A stretch of 64,000 nt of DNA from Hippea sp. KM1. Its GTDB lineage: Bacteria; Campylobacterota_A; Desulfurellia; Desulfurellales; Hippeaceae. Numbering within the stretch: position 1 is the first letter of the stretch; each line of letters opens with the position of its first letter. Shown here piece after piece: positions 55,451 to 64,000 of this stretch. The notes under the pieces were generated by a model. That model ran no database searches. It saw only the letters and a program-made list of their open reading frames with translations, and was not told the origin of the DNA. The stretch spans positions 1,622,001 through 1,686,000 of the forward strand of contig NZ_JAFP01000001.1 in the NCBI RefSeq assembly GCF_000526195.1. The letters are read 5' to 3'. The translations under genes were made by a program, and so were the position numbers.

Positions 55451-56584
55451 ATGAAGCGATTGTTAAGCTCGCTTGTAGCAGTCTTGGTTGGTTTGGTCTT
55501 TTTGGCAAACGCAAGTTTCGCCAAGGAGATCAAGGTCGGCGTTGTATGGCCGATGACAGGTTTAATTGCGGCATTTGGTCAGAGTGCCTGGAAGGGTTTG
55601 AAGTTGGCTGAGTCATTGCAGCCCAAAACAAAAGACGGATGCGTTATCCACCCTATTCTCCTTGACAACAAGGGAGATAAGGTGGAGACGGCAAACGCTG
55701 TAAGTAAGCTCATCACGGACAACCATGTGGTTGCCATCATCGGTGCAATCGCAAGCAGCAACACACTGGCAGGTGCTCCAATTGCTGAGAAGAACAAGAT
55801 CCCCATGCTTACATCCTCAGCCACAAACCCATTGGTAACCAAGGGCAAGAAGTATATCTCAAGGGTCTGCTTCATCGATCCGTTCCAGGGAACAGTTGGT
55901 GCAAAGTATGCATACAACAACCTCCACGCAAGAACAGCCGTTGTTATGATTGAAAAGGATCAGGATTACTCAGTTGGTCTTGCACACTCCTTTATGAAGG
56001 CATTTAAGGAGTTGGGCGGCAAGATATTGGGTGTTGAGTTCTTCCAGTCAACGGATCAGGATTACTCTGCACAGATCGCAGACATAAAATCCAAAAACCC
56101 AGATATCATCTATATGCCATCTTACTATCAGGAGATCTCCCTCTTTGCACGCCAGGCAAGGCAGTACGGCCTAAAACAGACAATAATGGCCGGTGATGGT
56201 GCTGAGGCCGATGCCCTCCTTAAGATCGGCGGCAAGGCCGTTGAGGGCGTTACATTCACAACACATTACGATCCACACGCTGCAGCAACACCGCTTTCAA
56301 AGAAGTTCCTCAAACTCTTCAAAGAGAAGTATAAAGAGGATCCGGATGCTATGGCAGCATTGGGCGCCGATGCATACTTCGTGCTTGTTAATGCTATAGA
56401 CAATGCAGGCGGCTGCAAGGCCACACCAGAAAAGATCAACTATCAGATCAGGCACACAAAGAACTTTAAGGGCGTAACGGGCGTTATAACAATAAATCCA
56501 GAGACAGGAAACGCCATCAAGAGCGCAGTGGTCAGGAAGGTTGAAAACGGTAAGTTCGTATATGTAACAACGGTCAATCCTTAA
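55451..56584 (+). CDS. livJ: Branched-chain amino-acid ABC transporter binding protein
   Basis: A 377-aa periplasmic receptor (Peripla_BP_6). Residues 1-24 are a signal peptide (LLSSLVAVLVGLVFLANASFA). The mature protein begins KEIKVGVVWPMTGLIAAFGQSAWKGLKLAE and has AIIGAIASSNTLAGAPIAEKNKIPMLTSSATNPLV, the ligand-binding Ser/Thr loop. An intrinsic terminator-like hairpin follows the gene, so the receptor is probably made in excess over the membrane parts. The ligand is likely Leu/Ile/Val or another hydrophobic amino acid. Confidence 0.94.
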   Translation: MKRLLSSLVAVLVGLVFLANASFAKEIKVGVVWPMTGLIAAFGQSAWKGLKLAESLQPKTKDGCVIHPILLDNKGDKVETANAVSKLITDNHVVAIIGAIASSNTLAGAPIAEKNKIPMLTSSATNPLVTKGKKYISRVCFIDPFQGTVGAKYAYNNLHARTAVVMIEKDQDYSVGLAHSFMKAFKELGGKILGVEFFQSTDQDYSAQIADIKSKNPDIIYMPSYYQEISLFARQARQYGLKQTIMAGDGAEADALLKIGGKAVEGVTFTTHYDPHAAATPLSKKFLKLFKEKYKEDPDAMAALGADAYFVLVNAIDNAGGCKATPEKINYQIRHTKNFKGVTGVITINPETGNAIKSAVVRKVENGKFVYVTTVNP

Positions 56585-56594
56585 AAAACAAGCG

Positions 56595-56622
56595 GGCGGG
56601 AGCAATCCCGCCTTAATTTTTT
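56595..56622 (+). terminator. Attenuating hairpin between livJ and livH
   Basis: A 7-bp G/C stem (GGCGGGA 56595-56601 with TCCCGCC 56606-56612), tetraloop GCAA, then TTAATTTTTT. Within an operon it probably gives partial termination. Confidence 0.8.
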
Positions 56623-56639
56623 AAAGAGAGAGTGGAGAA

Positions 56640-57536
56640 ATGAATTCAACAATCATCCTTCAGCAGTTGGTAAACGGCATATCGCTGGGTAGTTTGTATG
56701 GCCTTGTTGCAATCGGCTATACAATGGTTTACGGCGTTATAAGGCTCATCAACTTTGCCCACGGCGATGTCATGATGGTAGGAATGTATTTCGCCTTTGT
56801 GGGTGTCGCCATGATGTTTTTACCGTGGTGGGCTGCATTCCTGCTATCAATGTTCGCAACGGCAATAGTCGGTGTATTAATCGACAGGATTGCCTATAAA
56901 CCCCTAAGAAACGCAAGCAGAATATCCGCCCTTATTACGGCGATAGGCGTTTCATTCTTCTTAGAAAACCTCTTTTTGGTTGTATTCGGCGGTGTACCAA
57001 AGGCATTCCCCGTGCCTTCTATCTTTGCAGGCGCAATGAACATAAACGGCGTCATATTTCCCAACATAGCCATAATTACACCCATTGTTGCCATTGTATT
57101 CCTTCTGATGCTTCTGTTTGTTTTGTATAAAACAAAATACGGCATGGCGATGAGAGCGCTTTCCTTGGATATGGAAACAGTAAGGATAATGGGCATCAAT
57201 GTGGATCTGATAATATCGATGGTATTCGCCATAGGTTCGTTCCTGGCCGCTTTAGGCGGTGTTTTCTGGGCTATGAGGTATCCTGCAATCAACCCGCTAA
57301 TCGGCATCATGCCGGGCCTTAAGGCGTTTGCTGCCGCCGTTTTGGGCGGTATAGGCTCGGTAACGGGCGCTGCAGTGGGGGGATTCATCATCGGCATATC
57401 GGAGATACTGGTGGTCGCTTTCTTCCCTTCTTTGGCAGGCTACAAAGACGCCTTTGCCTTTCTGTTTTTGATCTTTGTCCTTCTGTTTAAACCCACAGGC
57501 ATTATGGGAGAAGACTTAGAGAGGGGGCGCTTCTAA
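56640..57536 (+). CDS. livH: Branched-chain amino-acid ABC permease LivH
   Basis: A 298-aa polytopic permease. It has LVNGISLGSLYGLVAIGYTMVYGVIRLINFAHGDVMMVG, the LivH hallmark, LRNASRISALITAIGVSFFLEN, and GAAVGGFIIGISEIL near the C-terminus. It pairs with LivM to form the channel. It follows livJ by 55 bases, past the hairpin, with GAGTGGAG before the ATG. Confidence 0.96.
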   Translation: MNSTIILQQLVNGISLGSLYGLVAIGYTMVYGVIRLINFAHGDVMMVGMYFAFVGVAMMFLPWWAAFLLSMFATAIVGVLIDRIAYKPLRNASRISALITAIGVSFFLENLFLVVFGGVPKAFPVPSIFAGAMNINGVIFPNIAIITPIVAIVFLLMLLFVLYKTKYGMAMRALSLDMETVRIMGINVDLIISMVFAIGSFLAALGGVFWAMRYPAINPLIGIMPGLKAFAAAVLGGIGSVTGAAVGGFIIGISEILVVAFFPSLAGYKDAFAFLFLIFVLLFKPTGIMGEDLERGRF

Positions 57537-57538
57537 TA

Positions 57539-58582
57539 ATGAGTCTAAGCAGAAATTCTATATTGACGATTATATCCATACTCCTGTTGTTTACATTTGT
57601 CTGGTATGCAAACAACAACTTCACACCCTATGCTGTAAGGATATGGGAAAACACAGCCATATTCTTGATGCTTGCTGCAAGTTATAACCTAATAAACGGT
57701 GTCACGGGTCAGTTCTCGTTGGAGCCAAACGGCTTTGTGGCTATCGGCGCCTATGTCGCAGCCATCCTAACGCTCACGCCGGACCAGAAAGAGGCTATGT
57801 TCATCATAGAGCCGATGGTTCCCTGGCTTAAAAGCATCCACATGTCGTTTTTACCATCGCTTATAATAGCCGGTGTCGTGACGGCTTTTGTTGGATTCTT
57901 GCTGGGCTTTCCCGTATTTAGGGTCAGGGGGGACTATCTGGCCATCGTCACACTGGGTTTTGGTCTAACCATCAGGGTTATCTCAAACAACACGATAACA
58001 ATAACAAACGGAGCATTGGGCCTAAAAGGCATTGCAAGCTATACAAATATCTGGTGGTGTTTCGGCTGGGCTGTGCTCTCGATGATAATAATAATGAGGA
58101 TAGTGTATTCAGCCTTCGGCAGAGCAATGAAGGCCATCAGAGACGATGAGGATGCAGCCATAGCCATGGGCATTAACACATTCTGGATAAAGATGGCTGC
58201 ATTCGTAATAGCCGCGTTCTTTGAGGGCGTCGGTGGAGGGCTATTGGCTCATTTGATAACCACCATATCACCAACGATGTTTACATTCTTCTTAACATTC
58301 CAGCTGCTTATCATCATAGTCGTTGGCGGCCTGGGCAGCATGACGGGAACGGTTCTTGCCACCATACTGGTGATCTGGGGAAGCGAGATATTGAGGTTTG
58401 TTGAACAGCCCATGAACATCGCAGGTCTGCATATCCCCGGTATCCCCGGCATGAGGATGGTGATATTCTCCATACTCCTGATCGTGATAATGATATTTGC
58501 ACGAGAAGGAATAATGGGTCAGAGGGAATTTTCCTGGAACTGGCTGTTTAACCTATTCAAAAAAGGAAAAAGTGAAGCTTAA
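57539..58582 (+). CDS. livM: Branched-chain amino-acid ABC permease LivM
   Basis: A 347-aa polytopic permease. Markers are LMLAASYNLINGVTGQFSLEPNGFVAIGAYVAAILT, GFPVFRVRGDYLAIVTLGFGLTIRVISNN and GRAMKAIRDDEDAAIAMGIN, the ATPase-contact loop of LivM. It starts 2 bases after livH and ends 2 bases before livG. Confidence 0.96.
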   Translation: MSLSRNSILTIISILLLFTFVWYANNNFTPYAVRIWENTAIFLMLAASYNLINGVTGQFSLEPNGFVAIGAYVAAILTLTPDQKEAMFIIEPMVPWLKSIHMSFLPSLIIAGVVTAFVGFLLGFPVFRVRGDYLAIVTLGFGLTIRVISNNTITITNGALGLKGIASYTNIWWCFGWAVLSMIIIMRIVYSAFGRAMKAIRDDEDAAIAMGINTFWIKMAAFVIAAFFEGVGGGLLAHLITTISPTMFTFFLTFQLLIIIVVGGLGSMTGTVLATILVIWGSEILRFVEQPMNIAGLHIPGIPGMRMVIFSILLIVIMIFAREGIMGQREFSWNWLFNLFKKGKSEA

Positions 58583-58584
58583 CC

Positions 58585-59358
58585 ATGGATAATATAGCCC
58601 TTAAATGCGATAGGATAACAATGAGATTTGGCGGTCTAACGGCCGTAAACGGGTTTTCCGTTGAGATAAAGGAGCACATGATATTCGGCCTTATCGGGCC
58701 AAACGGCGCAGGCAAAACCACGGCCTTTAACATGATAACGGGCAACCTAAAGCCCACAAGCGGCGAGATATTCTTCTATGGCAAAAACATAACGGGCATG
58801 AAGCCGTTTAAGATCGTCTCATTGGGTATGGCAAGGACATTTCAGAACATCAGGCTATTCTCCAATCTGTCGGTTATAGAGAATGTATTAACCGGCTTTC
58901 ACCACAAACTCAAATACAACCTCATCGATGCCATACTGAGAACGCCGAGGTTTTACAGATATGAAAGGCAAATGAGAGAAGAGGCAATGGAGCTTCTAAG
59001 AAGCGTCGGTTTAGAAGAAAAGGCCGATTTTAAGGCCAGCAAGTTGCCATACGGTGAAAGGAGAAAGGTGGAGATAGCAAGGGCCCTGGCAACGGGTCCG
59101 AAGATGCTGCTTTTAGATGAGCCTGCAGCGGGTATGAACCCACAGGAGACGATGGGTTTGATGTATTTTATCCAGGAGATAAAGGAGAAGTTCAACCTGA
59201 CGGTGCTATTGATTGAACATGACATGAAGTTTGTTATGAATCTATGCGAGCGAATAGCCGTGTTGGATCACGGCGTAAAGATAGCCGAGGGCAAACCGGA
59301 AGAAATCCAGAAAAACCCCGATGTCATAAAGGCATACTTAGGAGACATCAATGCTTAA
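58585..59358 (+). CDS. livG: Branched-chain amino-acid ABC ATPase LivG
   Basis: 257 aa. Walker A GPNGAGKTTAFNMITG, signature KLPYGERRKVEIARAL, Walker B MLLLDEPAAGMNPQET. The QNIRLF Q-loop and long insertion before the signature are typical of LivG, which has a longer middle than LivF. It overlaps livF by 8 bases. Confidence 0.96.
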   Translation: MDNIALKCDRITMRFGGLTAVNGFSVEIKEHMIFGLIGPNGAGKTTAFNMITGNLKPTSGEIFFYGKNITGMKPFKIVSLGMARTFQNIRLFSNLSVIENVLTGFHHKLKYNLIDAILRTPRFYRYERQMREEAMELLRSVGLEEKADFKASKLPYGERRKVEIARALATGPKMLLLDEPAAGMNPQETMGLMYFIQEIKEKFNLTVLLIEHDMKFVMNLCERIAVLDHGVKIAEGKPEEIQKNPDVIKAYLGDINA

Positions 59359-60052
59359 GGTAAAGGATTTAAATGTCTATTACGGCGTAATACACGCCGT
59401 CAAAGGGATAACCTTTAATGTTCCAGAAAACAAGATAATAACCCTAATTGGCGCAAACGGTGCAGGCAAATCCAGCACCCTAAAGGCCATTGCGGGTCTT
59501 GTGCGCCCCAGGGGAAGCATAAAGTTTTTGGGTGATGAGATCTCAAAAAAACCGGCCTATAAAATTGCACAGAAGGGCATATCGCTTGTGCCTGAGGGCA
59601 GAAGGGTCTTTGCCAATTTGACCATCCTGGAAAACCTAAGAATGGGTGGGTTTAACAAAAACCCGGCAGAGCTTGAGCCGCTATATGAGAAGATGTTTGA
59701 ACTCTTCCCTATCCTAAAGGAAAGGGCGCACCAAAAGGCAGGCACGCTCTCAGGTGGTGAGCAGCAGATGCTGGCCATAGCAAGGGCCCTGATGAGTGAA
59801 CCTTCGCTGTTAATGCTGGATGAGCCAAGCTTGGGTTTGGCACCAAAGGTCGTCTCGGAGGTGTTTGAGATCCTAAAGGAACTAAACAGAAACGGCAAAA
59901 CCATACTATTGGTTGAGCAAAACGCCGCTCAGGCCTTAAAGCTTGCCCATTACGCCTATGTTTTAGAAAATGGAAGCATAACATTAGAGGGGGATGCAAA
60001 CGAGCTATTGGAAAACGAAGAGGTAAGGAAGAGTTATCTGGGTGAAATCTAA
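59351..60052 (+). CDS. livF: Branched-chain amino-acid ABC ATPase LivF
   Basis: 233 aa. Walker A IGANGAGKSSTLKAIAG, VPEGRRVFANLTILENLRMG, signature TLSGGEQQMLAIARALMSEP, Walker B LLMLDEPSLGLAPKVV and the C-terminal LVEQNAAQALKLAHYAYVLENG. It completes the Liv importer. Its stop lies 41 bases before the XRE-cupin gene, whose promoter begins only 6 bases after livF. Confidence 0.96.
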   Translation: MLKVKDLNVYYGVIHAVKGITFNVPENKIITLIGANGAGKSSTLKAIAGLVRPRGSIKFLGDEISKKPAYKIAQKGISLVPEGRRVFANLTILENLRMGGFNKNPAELEPLYEKMFELFPILKERAHQKAGTLSGGEQQMLAIARALMSEPSLLMLDEPSLGLAPKVVSEVFEILKELNRNGKTILLVEQNAAQALKLAHYAYVLENGSITLEGDANELLENEEVRKSYLGEI

Positions 60053-60093: not shown

Positions 60094-60642
60094 ATGAGAG
60101 TCGGAAGCAAGATTCGAGAGATCAGAACCAAAAAGAATATGACCTTACGGGATTTGAGCAAGAAGTCGGGCTGCTCGCTGGGTTTTCTCTCTCAGGTTGA
60201 GCGTGACCTTGTCTCACCCACCATCTCATCCCTAAGGAGAATAGCCGATGCCTTGGGCATAAACATAATATCCCTGTTTGAGGAGAGGGAGCCGCCGGTT
60301 GATTCGATAGTCGTCAGGAAGGCAAACAGGGGAAAGTTTGAAAACAAGCGCTCGCGTGTTAAATACGAGCTTTTGCGTCCGCAGTTTTCAGATACAACAA
60401 TCGAGGCGCTTTATATGTATTTGGAACCCGGGGCATTAAGCGGCACAACCCCCCACTCCCACAACGGCGAAGAGCTGGTCATCGTTCTAAAGGGCAAGCT
60501 GGAGATAGAGGTGGGAGGAAAAACATATACGCTTGAGGAGGGGGATTCTGCCGTCTATAACTCCAACATACCGCACAGATGGAGAAATCCCAACGACCAG
60601 ACAACAGAGGTAATCTGGGTTAACCATCCTCCGACCTTCTGA
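60094..60642 (+). CDS. XRE-family regulator with C-terminal cupin domain
   Basis: 182 aa. Residues 5-60 are an XRE helix-turn-helix (KIREIRTKKNMTLRDLSKKSGCSLGFLSQVERDLVSPTISSLRRIADAL). Residues 105-178 are a cupin (GTTPHSHNGEELVIVLKGKLEIEVGGKTYTLEEGDSAVYNSNIPHRWRN) that probably binds a small metabolite or metal. Relatives such as PuuR control amine, amino-acid or sulfur metabolism. It could regulate the liv operon upstream or the redox cassette downstream, whose first ATG overlaps its stop (TGATG). The predicted mRNA is leaderless. Confidence 0.9.
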   Translation: MRVGSKIREIRTKKNMTLRDLSKKSGCSLGFLSQVERDLVSPTISSLRRIADALGINIISLFEEREPPVDSIVVRKANRGKFENKRSRVKYELLRPQFSDTTIEALYMYLEPGALSGTTPHSHNGEELVIVLKGKLEIEVGGKTYTLEEGDSAVYNSNIPHRWRNPNDQTTEVIWVNHPPTF

Positions 60643-61631
60643 TGATAGACTTCTCTTTGGCTGGCAACATACAGATAAATCTAAACAGGTGCAACAGATA
60701 CATATTTGCAAAAAGCTCTTGCGACAGTTGCACAAACATCTGTCCAACGGATGCAATAAAACTAACACCCTATCCATCGATAAACGAAGATAGCTGCATC
60801 AAATGCGGCCTATGCTATGCTGCATGCCCATCAACGGCCATCAGCATAAGAAACGACAACTATAGACTCCTAAACGAAACCTCAAGCTTAGAAAGGATCG
60901 AGATAGGTTGCATATTCTCAAAAGCCGCCAACAAGGTATCATGCATCTATAGGCTTGACCATTCCATACTAACAGCATGGCTTTTGATGGGAAAACCCGT
61001 AAGGATAAAAAGGGGCGACTGCAAAAGCTGCAAGTTTAAGAATCAGGCAAGGCTGTTTTTTGAGGAGCTAAGGATAGCCGTAAGGCTTGCAAAAGCAGCC
61101 GACATAGAACCAGACATAAAGATAAACAAATCAACAGCCGAAAAGGTGCATATACCCAAAGAGGGGTTATCCAGAAGGGAGCTTCTATCTGCATTAAAAA
61201 AACCCTCATCAAAACCCAAACGCATACTCTTTTTGAAACACCTAAACCCTATAGAGAGGATAGAATGCAGGATAACGGCAAAGATCACCATAACAGACTC
61301 ATGCGACCTCTGCGGTATTTGTGAGGTTGTATGTCCAACCGATGCCATACTCATACAAAAGGAACAAAGGGGCGAGGTGTGGTTTAATCCAGCAGCCTGC
61401 ATAAACTGCCAAAACTGTCTTATAGGGTGCCTAAGGGGTGCAATCGAGATTGAGAGCGGGTATACAGACCTTCTAAAGGCCGAGCCAGAAGTGATTTTCG
61501 AGGCTAAAAAGAGGATATGCACCAAATGCAAGACGCCGTTTTATTCAAACTCAGAAGAAGAAGTCTGCCCGGCATGCAAATCCAGGGATGCAAAAAAGCA
61601 AAGCATCATAGATATGTTCAAAAATATTTAG
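60642..61631 (+). CDS. Polyferredoxin with four [4Fe-4S]-type motifs and a zinc ribbon
   Basis: 329 aa. N-terminal pair: CDSCTNICP (preceded by C17) and CIKCGLCYAACP (about 17-62). The middle has IGCIFSKAANKVSCI...LTAWLLMGKPVRIKRGDCKSCKF, resembling accessory 4Fe-4S proteins found with molybdopterin or TorD-type oxidoreductases. C-terminal pair: CDLCGICEVVCP and CINCQNCLIGC. The last part holds CTKC...CPAC, a zinc-ribbon pattern. It is probably a cytosolic electron carrier or maturation factor; the exact function is unknown. Its start overlaps the regulator gene's stop, and a thioredoxin-like and a DUF364 gene follow. Confidence 0.8.
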   Translation: MIDFSLAGNIQINLNRCNRYIFAKSSCDSCTNICPTDAIKLTPYPSINEDSCIKCGLCYAACPSTAISIRNDNYRLLNETSSLERIEIGCIFSKAANKVSCIYRLDHSILTAWLLMGKPVRIKRGDCKSCKFKNQARLFFEELRIAVRLAKAADIEPDIKINKSTAEKVHIPKEGLSRRELLSALKKPSSKPKRILFLKHLNPIERIECRITAKITITDSCDLCGICEVVCPTDAILIQKEQRGEVWFNPAACINCQNCLIGCLRGAIEIESGYTDLLKAEPEVIFEAKKRICTKCKTPFYSNSEEEVCPACKSRDAKKQSIIDMFKNI

Positions 61632-61665
61632 AAAATCTCAAAATTTTGTGATAAACTCCAAAACC

Positions 61666-61977
61666 ATGAAAGAGTTAAGCTCAAAAGAGGAGTTTGAAGA
61701 CTTTATACAGAACGGCAGGCCGACCATAGTCGTGTTTTCAACCCACGATTGTGCCACATGCAGGCCTGTTAAAGAAAAGATAGCCTCACGGTTTAAGGAT
61801 GTCGATACGGCCAATATCTATTTAGACGATGTAAGGGAGTTAAGCGGTGAGCTTTCCATATTCAATGTGCCCGTTGTCTGCATATTCTTAGAAGGCAAGG
61901 AGCTTTACAGGTTTATACGGGTATTCTCGATGGATGAGATAGAAGAAAAACTCAACAGGGTATTGGAGTTTATTTAG
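61666..61977 (+). CDS. Thioredoxin-like protein (CATC motif)
   Basis: 103 aa. Thioredoxin fold: RPTIVVFSTHDCATCRPVKEKI (CxxC motif CATC), VDTANIYLDDVRELSGELSIFNVPVVCIFLEGKELYRFIR with the cis-Pro in VPVV. It lacks a signal peptide, so it is cytosolic. The start is ATG 61666; an in-frame GTG at 61648 lies in the promoter. There is no Shine-Dalgarno, and an extended -10 (TGATAAACT, 61649-61657) ends 8 bases before the ATG, so it may also be leaderless. It is directly followed by the DUF364 gene. Confidence 0.8.
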   Translation: MKELSSKEEFEDFIQNGRPTIVVFSTHDCATCRPVKEKIASRFKDVDTANIYLDDVRELSGELSIFNVPVVCIFLEGKELYRFIRVFSMDEIEEKLNRVLEFI

Positions 61978-62706
61978 ATGTTTGTCCACCAATTGATCCA
62001 CCAAAAGGCAAAAGAAAAGGCCGAAGGCCTTGAGGTTGTCGATGTGAGGATAGGGCTTGGCTATACGCTGGTTCAGCTAAGCGATAACTCTGCAGGCCTA
62101 TCATACAGCTTTACAAAGGAGCTTTCACCAAAAGACTGCACGGTAATGAAGGAGGCCGGCAATATAACAGGCAAAAAGGCAGAAGAGATACTGGATAAGA
62201 TACTATCGTATAACCTAACAGACTCAAGCTTGGCTTTGGCATGCGCAAACGCAATAATAAACAAAGGCATAGAGCAAAACGGAGTTGATATAGTTGACCT
62301 CATACATCCAGACGACAAGGTCGTTATGGTTGGCTATTTTGCCCCATTGATAGAGCCGATAAGGAGTAAGACAGATAGGTTTGTGGTCTGTGAGCGCAAC
62401 CCCAAGGGCTCATCGTTGCCCGATTATGCCGAATACTTTGAGCTATACGACTGCGATGTGGCCATACTAACGGCAACATCAATCATAAACAAGACCATCG
62501 ATAGCCTGCTTGATATGGTAAAAAGGGCAAGGATTGTGGCCGTAATGGGGCCTTCCACGCCTATGGATAGAAGCATCTTCAAAAACAGGATAACGCATGC
62601 ATGCGGCAGTATCGTAAAGGATATAGAATTGGCAAAAAGGATAATCAGCGAGGGCGGCGGCACAAAAAGACTAAAGCCGGCTATAGAAAAAAGGTGTGTC
62701 TATTAA
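61978..62706 (+). CDS. DUF364/DUF4213-type protein
   Basis: 242 aa. The N-terminal 80 residues match the DUF4213 part (VRIGLGYTLVQLSDNSAGLSYSF). The rest matches the DUF364 Rossmann-like domain: DKVVMVGYFAPLIEPI, VVCERNPKG, DCDVAILTATSIINKTIDSLLDM, VAVMGPSTPMDRSIFKNRITHACGSIV. The family is found in anaerobes, where it has been guessed to bind metals or corrinoid/siderophore-like ligands; no activity is proven to my knowledge. The ATG follows the thioredoxin gene's stop directly. The argF gene follows after 12 bases. Confidence 0.85.
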   Translation: MFVHQLIHQKAKEKAEGLEVVDVRIGLGYTLVQLSDNSAGLSYSFTKELSPKDCTVMKEAGNITGKKAEEILDKILSYNLTDSSLALACANAIINKGIEQNGVDIVDLIHPDDKVVMVGYFAPLIEPIRSKTDRFVVCERNPKGSSLPDYAEYFELYDCDVAILTATSIINKTIDSLLDMVKRARIVAVMGPSTPMDRSIFKNRITHACGSIVKDIELAKRIISEGGGTKRLKPAIEKRCVY

Positions 62707-62718
62707 AGGAGAATGGCT

Positions 62719-63648
62719 ATGGTTAAACACTGTTTGAGCCTAAAGGACCTAACAAAAGAAGAGATTGTAAATCTTCTAAAGCTCTCCCAACAGATAAAGC
62801 AAAAAATCAAAAACGGGGAAAACTATGAACCGCTAAAGGGCGTAATACTCGGCATGATATTTGAGAAGCCCTCAACCAGAACAAGGCTCTCATTCGAAAC
62901 CGGCATGAAAAGGCTTGGAGGGGATGCGGTCTTTCTATCACCGAGGGATATTCAGCTTGGAAGGGGTGAGTCAATAGAGGATACGGCAAGGGTCATCTCC
63001 CGTTATGTCGATATTATCATGATAAGGACATTTGAGCATTCGAGGATAGAGAGGTTTGCACAATACTCCACCGTTCCTGTAATCAATGCATTAACGGATC
63101 TGCTCCATCCGTGTCAGGTATTGGCAGACCTTCTGACGATTAAGGAGAAGTTGGGCGACATCGAGGGCATAAAGGTGGCCTTCTTCGGGGATGGCAACAA
63201 CATGGCCAACTCATGGATATACGCTGCAGCCGTTGTTGGATTTGAGCTGAGGGTGGCAACGCCTGTGGATTGTGCTCCAAACGGCGTTGTAATCAACAAC
63301 GCATTGAAACTCGCACAAAAAAGCGGTGCAAAAATCATCCTGACGGATGATCCAAAAGAGGCTGCAGAGGGTGCAGATGTTTTGTATACCGATGTCTGGG
63401 CATCCATGGGTCAGGAGGATCAAAAAGAGAAGAAACACGCCCTCATGAGGCCGTATCAGGTAAACAGGGAGCTTGTAAAATACGCAAATAAGGACTATAT
63501 ATTCATGCACTGCCTGCCTGCCCACAGGGGCGAGGAGGTGGAGGCTGAGATCATCGACGATGAAAAACACTCCGTTGTGTTTGACGAGGCGGAAAACAGA
63601 ACCTATGCTCAACTTGCGACGATAATGAATCTAATCGGGAGGTTTTAA
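62719..63648 (+). CDS. argF: Ornithine carbamoyltransferase
   Basis: Makes citrulline from ornithine and carbamoyl phosphate. 309 aa. Carbamoyl-phosphate motif [55 protein letters not shown], and the ornithine-site [19 protein letters not shown] 62719 is chosen: GGAG lies 7 bases upstream, whereas ATG 62713 has it only 1 base away. argG starts 1 base after its stop. Confidence 0.97.
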
Positions 63649-63649
63649 T

Positions 63650-64000
63650 ATGGGTGAGATTAAAAAGGTTGTGCTTGCCTATTCCGGAGGTCTTGATACA
63701 TCGGTAATCGTAAAGTGGTTGCAGGATAAATACGGATGCGAGGTAATCACATACACAGCCGATTTAGGCCAGAACGAGGATTTAGAGCCCATAAAGGAAA
63801 AGGCGCTAAAGGTTGGTGCAAGCAAGGCCTATGTTGAGGATGTCAGGGAGGAGTTCTTAAACGACTATGTAATGAAGGCCTTTAAGTTTGGCGCCCTCTA
63901 TGAGGGCAAATACCCGCTTGCAACAGCACTTGGAAGGCCACTAATCACAAAGAAGATGATAGAGATAACCCAGAAAGAGGGCGCAGATGCCATAGCCCAC
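63650..64000 (+). CDS. argG: Argininosuccinate synthase, 5' end
   Basis: The first 117 codons are in the window. The start reads [19 protein letters not shown] (PP-loop ATP site), then [21 protein letters not shown] and [21 protein letters not shown], the canonical ArgG N-terminus. It joins citrulline and aspartate using ATP. GGGAGG lies 6 bases before the ATG, and argF ends 1 base upstream, so argF-argG are one operon. The rest of the gene is beyond the window. Confidence 0.97.

Follow-up and report, generated by a model that had tools for sequence, protein, structure and literature searches.

Four genes lying on the forward strand near the end of a 64,000-nucleotide stretch of the Hippea sp. 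KM1 genome (henceforth the window) raise the question of whether close packing in a bacterial genome identifies a functional system. The initial annotation had read them as an XRE-cupin regulator, a polyferredoxin, a thioredoxin and a DUF364/DUF4213 protein, and had put them together in one undescribed redox or metal cassette. The four open reading frames and their families were borne out by ORF calling and Pfam, with matches to HTH_3 (2e-11) and Cupin_2 (4e-21) in the regulator, to Fer4 families in the polyferredoxin, to Thioredoxin (1.5e-7) in the third protein and to DUF4213 (7e-21) plus DUF364 (1e-36) in the fourth. The packing is equally real: the regulator and polyferredoxin genes overlap by 1 base (TGATG), there is a 0-base gap between the thioredoxin-like gene and DUF364, and argF follows DUF364 after 6 bases.

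Features of the window around the four-gene junction (positions in the window)
Feature	Position	Strand	Remarks	Evidence
Branched-chain amino-acid ABC transporter livJHMGF	55451..60052	+	transporter part of unit A	ORFs; conserved order
livJ	55451-56584	+		NCBIfam best match
livH	56640-57536	+		synteny cluster and sequence reading only
livM	57539-58582	+		NCBIfam best match
livG	58585-59358	+		synteny cluster and sequence reading only
livF	59351-60052	+		NCBIfam best match
XRE-family HTH + cupin regulator (182 aa)	60094..60642	+	last gene of unit A	Pfam; orthologues
Polyferredoxin gene, probably relocated (329 aa)	60642..61631	+	four [4Fe-4S] motifs; middle Cys4 region weakly FlpD/MvhD-like; C-terminal zinc ribbon	alignment; Pfam; AF2; scattered location; old site empty
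Conserved promoter-like element TTTAGAAAAT-N7-TTTTGTGATAAACT	61627..61657	+	upstream of trx	junction sequences; DNA alignment of seven genomes
Thioredoxin-like protein (trx), atypical, CATC active site (103 aa)	61666..61977	+	first gene of unit B; ORF open from GTG 61648	Pfam Thioredoxin; alignment; PDB relatives
DUF4213-DUF364 protein (242 aa)	61978..62706	+	unit B; lineage-specific cysteines C209, C240	Pfam; model vs 3L5O; cysteine census
argF, ornithine carbamoyltransferase	62713..63648	+	unit B	NCBIfam TIGR00658 above cut-off
argG, argininosuccinate synthase	63650..64000	+	unit B; runs off the window	NCBIfam TIGR00032 above cut-off on locus L104

With each of the four proteins we searched 25 genomes of the phylum, and about 40 loci of 3–19 kb were extracted, ORF-called and clustered, which also served to gauge the background of conserved synteny. 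Among these 25 genomes the four-gene arrangement was found only in the genome of the window (G000) and in its nearest sister, G007, so the recurrent linkage expected of a cassette is missing for the set as a whole. It does exist for one pair: the thioredoxin gene lies directly before DUF364 in all 14 genomes that have this thioredoxin, spread over genera g1, g3 and g4 of one family (f1) and g6 of a second (f2). Outside the genus, the genes common to loci with DUF364 are trx, argF, argG and trmB alone; those with the XRE-cupin gene share the liv genes only, and those with the polyferredoxin have no other consistent gene in common. Since nothing beyond trx-DUF364-argF-argG-trmB is common to the loci outside the genus, this block does not reflect general synteny. 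We are therefore highly confident that three independent pieces adjoin in the apparent cassette, namely unit A (liv transporter and regulator), unit B (beginning with trx and DUF364) and a polyferredoxin gene between them. Units A and B are separate, long-conserved and unrelated gene blocks, and the thioredoxin-like gene and DUF364 form the sole lasting partnership within the four-gene set.

The regulator belongs with the transporter. Its orthologues (77–93% identical) lie directly 3′ of livF, behind livJHMGF, in the genus and also beyond it, in G010, G013 and G014; in these three genomes of other genera the liv-XRE block (loci L100, L101 and L102) and DUF364 are on different contigs. We rejected the XRE-cupin protein as a regulator of DUF364 because its gene tracks the liv operon even when DUF364 is on another contig; most likely it controls the amino-acid transporter. 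The layout of HTH plus cupin is that of PuuR, but the protein described here is linked to a liv transporter rather than to putrescine genes and falls short of the PuuR equivalog cut-off (NF007408; 84.3 bits vs 211).

An alignment of 20 orthologues of the polyferredoxin revealed 24 invariant cysteines, which include those for four [4Fe-4S] clusters arranged as two ferredoxin-type pairs and those of a middle Cys4 site (C90, C101, C127 and C130), with a zinc ribbon at the C-terminus. The four cluster motifs and the zinc ribbon had been recognized initially, but the middle site had been missed. This middle region weakly resembles FlpD/MvhD (PF02662) in two of the 20 homologues (best E 0.0016), the window protein itself being unmatched. 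A structural search of the PDB with the AF2 model (pLDDT 89) gave no global match (TM about 0.2) and only local matches to ferredoxins, and a search of the genome contigs added two remote partial matches and nothing more. Chains of [4Fe-4S] motifs are also found in MvhB and FwdF, but here there are only four ferredoxin motifs plus the zinc ribbon, and no hydrogenase or Fwd genes were found near the polyferredoxin gene. As an observation apart, the gene of G017 is split into two overlapping ORFs (L118, 5777–6746), by a frameshift or an assembly error.

Three families of the class have this gene, as a single copy, and its location varies from genus to genus. Six genomes of the genus (G001, G002, G004, G005, G006 and G008) have it next to tatA/argS; in g4 and part of g3 its neighbours are nadB- and cysK-like genes, and in a third family it is found beside purine genes, with purC among its neighbours elsewhere (the names of neighbours at these sites were read from the sequence). 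Only in G000 and G007 is it placed between units A and B, and in both the tatA/argS site has no polyferredoxin; what is found near that site, recognized by eye in each case, is either an element resembling IstB or a diguanylate-cyclase-like gene. Presence at tatA/argS in six sisters together with absence there in G000 and G007 argues that the gene moved and was not duplicated, and the simplest account of the gene orders would be that it moved in behind the liv-XRE operon as its last gene. In the polyferredoxin tree G000 groups with G007 inside the family and the remainder is poorly resolved, so that a related copy may have replaced the gene instead. At the position held by the polyferredoxin in the sisters, upstream of tatA-argS, G007 carries an IstB-like ATPase gene (by eye; L187, 1–941), so that a mobile element may have been involved in the move.

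These locations bear directly on the idea that all four genes serve one redox or metal system, in which the regulator would sense a signal and DUF364 would receive electrons from the polyferredoxin and the thioredoxin. The 1-base overlap and 0-base gap are what such a system might look like, and the arrangement is kept in both genomes that have the polyferredoxin here (L104 and L090); yet in every other relative the polyferredoxin is elsewhere, the XRE-cupin gene is bound to the liv genes, and trx-DUF364 occurs with neither of them in G010, G013, G014 and G016–G018. We consider a single system highly improbable. The polyferredoxin as electron donor to DUF364, a step of the initial annotation, was rejected for want of any conserved or recurrent linkage between the two among the relatives.

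In five sister genomes the XRE-cupin gene adjoins trx directly, at a distance of roughly 40–65 bases, and the region upstream of trx contains a common element, TTTAGAAAAT followed by TGTGATAAACT or variants. A DNA alignment of seven genomes shows this element to be the same with or without the polyferredoxin insert; in G000 and G007 the stop codon of the polyferredoxin (61629–61631 in the window) sits within its first half. Sequence conservation supports the promoter region originally placed before the thioredoxin gene, but a sigma-70 consensus scan did not report it, and we call the element promoter-like solely for its conservation. Its retention before trx implies that trx-DUF364 is probably transcribed separately: unit B would have its own promoter, with the polyferredoxin read out together with the liv-XRE operon and trx-DUF364 transcribed with the arginine genes, although read-through from unit A may co-transcribe unit B. 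The thioredoxin-like protein probably starts at ATG 61666 and not at GTG 61648, as its relatives start there and the GTG falls inside the conserved element.

Unit B has the order trx–DUF364–[divergent DUF364 paralogue]–argF–argG–trmB in two families whose flanks differ, the gene that follows argG in the genome being a TrmB-like methyltransferase (PF02390). Wherever the assembly extends far enough, every genus of the family has the trx-DUF364-argF-argG-trmB block, and so does a second family of the order (G016–G018); alignment places the divergent paralogue behind DUF364 in that second family and in genera other than that of the window. In that second family the paralogue (cluster c12; L096, L097 and L098, from G016–G018) has lost some of the Rossmann loop as well as the conserved Asn/Thr motif; it is probably degenerate. 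The two DUF364 genes found without a thioredoxin are at contig edges. That DUF364 is absent from G004, G011 and G012 was rejected as a sign of its co-loss with trx, because argF is at a contig end there or, in the case of G012, follows a truncated DUF364 paralogue.

The first protein of unit B is a genuine member of the thioredoxin fold family with the CATC site originally proposed (PF00085, 31.8 bits vs a cut-off of 23.5), and both CxxC cysteines are kept in 14 of 14 relatives. It is not a canonical TrxA, given 32.5 bits against the 96.8 of the TIGR01068 equivalog cut-off. With its nearest PDB relatives, 4EUY (the nearest solved structure) and 3TCO, it shares the fold family, the CxxC site and a VP motif at the cis-proline position, but it has CATC in place of the WCGPC of canonical thioredoxin.

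The DUF364 protein scores well above the cut-offs for PF04016 (126.2 bits vs 23) and PF13938 (DUF4213; 74.7 bits vs 23.5). Its AF2 model (pLDDT 90) has an Enolase-N-like plus a Rossmann-like fold and superposes by Foldseek on the solved structures of the family, 3L5O (Dhaf4260) and 3NPG (PH1506), with TM 0.82–0.85 (0.85 to 3L5O). The pocket residues named for those structures (PMC2954201) are kept, the equivalents by alignment being N91, G119, E139, T165, N171 and T173. What sets the protein apart from the two solved ones is the position of its gene, which follows that of a thioredoxin-like protein in an arginine operon, and two extra cysteines, C209 and C240, found in 15 of the 16 lineage sequences but in hardly any of 34 distant homologues. 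They are located on predicted strands (207–213 and 236–241) that would be neighbours in the published strand order. Both are replaced in a single genome, G008 (by M and S), as would fit a pair; a cysteine three residues further remains there. In the papers that we searched there was no published biochemical activity for DUF364, on which only the structure of 2010 and a Serratia study bear, and nothing on DUF4213.

Are trx and DUF364 then partners, or passengers in a stable argF/argG/trmB housekeeping operon whose order reflects slow rearrangement and nothing biochemical? We put the chance that they are functionally paired at about one half. The passenger account, to which we would give somewhat less than even odds, draws on the fact that argF-argG is class-wide and, in families that have no DUF364, present without trx or DUF364. 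It also draws on the rarity of the pair outside the order, where a thioredoxin adjoins DUF364 in one lineage only (f48; L177 and L180), in reverse order, among 52 DUF364-bearing loci; with one further lineage, from a phylum represented by two genomes, the support for the pair from outside the order is weak. No argF was seen within a few genes of a distant DUF364. Two facts are harder to reconcile with mere passengers: trx and DUF364 abut without a gap or overlap in both families, while the operon flanks turned over completely, and the extra DUF364 cysteines are specific to the lineage with a dedicated thioredoxin. In a functional pair the thioredoxin might reduce C209 and C240 of DUF364, a reasonable thiol mechanism that we nonetheless regard as unlikely, since G008 keeps its thioredoxin, CATC included, without these cysteines and both are absent in the other thioredoxin-linked lineage (L177 and L180).

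The proposal of metal handling stands only indirectly, at the level of the family. Published genome-context analysis of DUF364 points to metals (PMC2954201), and elsewhere in the genome a divergent DUF364 paralogue (contig C1 of G000, near 723,000; L160, 7701–8459) overlaps by 4 bases the gene of a ModC/WtpC-like ATPase, with a ModB-like permease gene next (about 722701–725281; L160, 7701–10281). Together these support a putative metal-related role for the DUF364 family, not for the genes of the window in particular, unit B itself having no metal gene. We hold it to be possible but rather doubtful that the DUF364 protein described here and the divergent paralogue serve molybdate/tungstate or another metal and cooperate, with one of them working at uptake and the other within the arg operon. 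The occurrence of the two DUF364 types in tandem in other genera and other phyla (L127 and L172) would agree with this reading, but distant DUF364 genes have highly varied neighbours: ABC transporters, xanthine-dehydrogenase-type subunits, MinD-ferredoxin ATPases, cysteine/methionine metabolism and Rho (mostly identified by eye, three confirmed by Pfam). A module in which the thioredoxin-like protein, DUF364 and the divergent paralogue would make or load a metal-binding small molecule, with the thioredoxin cycling a DUF364 disulfide and expression tied to arginine synthesis, would be undescribed, and we rate it as decidedly improbable.

Some further arrangements of the family were seen. The order paralogue-ModC-ModB recurs, judged by size, in G007 (L161) and G001 (L163). 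The tandem divergent and canonical genes of unrelated genomes (L127, 7046–8571; L172, 7207–8834) suggest, from their arrangement, a two-subunit DUF364. In two separate families DUF364 lies near genes for a NifX-like small protein and for two MinD-type ATPases into which ferredoxin domains are inserted (L174, 7688–11446; L183, 2947–6083).

A tempting but false system can thus be struck from the candidates, and gene packing alone misleads here. What is left for the DUF364 family are two leads: a dedicated thioredoxin partner where DUF364 has extra cysteines of its own, and a paralogue whose gene overlaps an operon for a molybdate/tungstate-type transporter.
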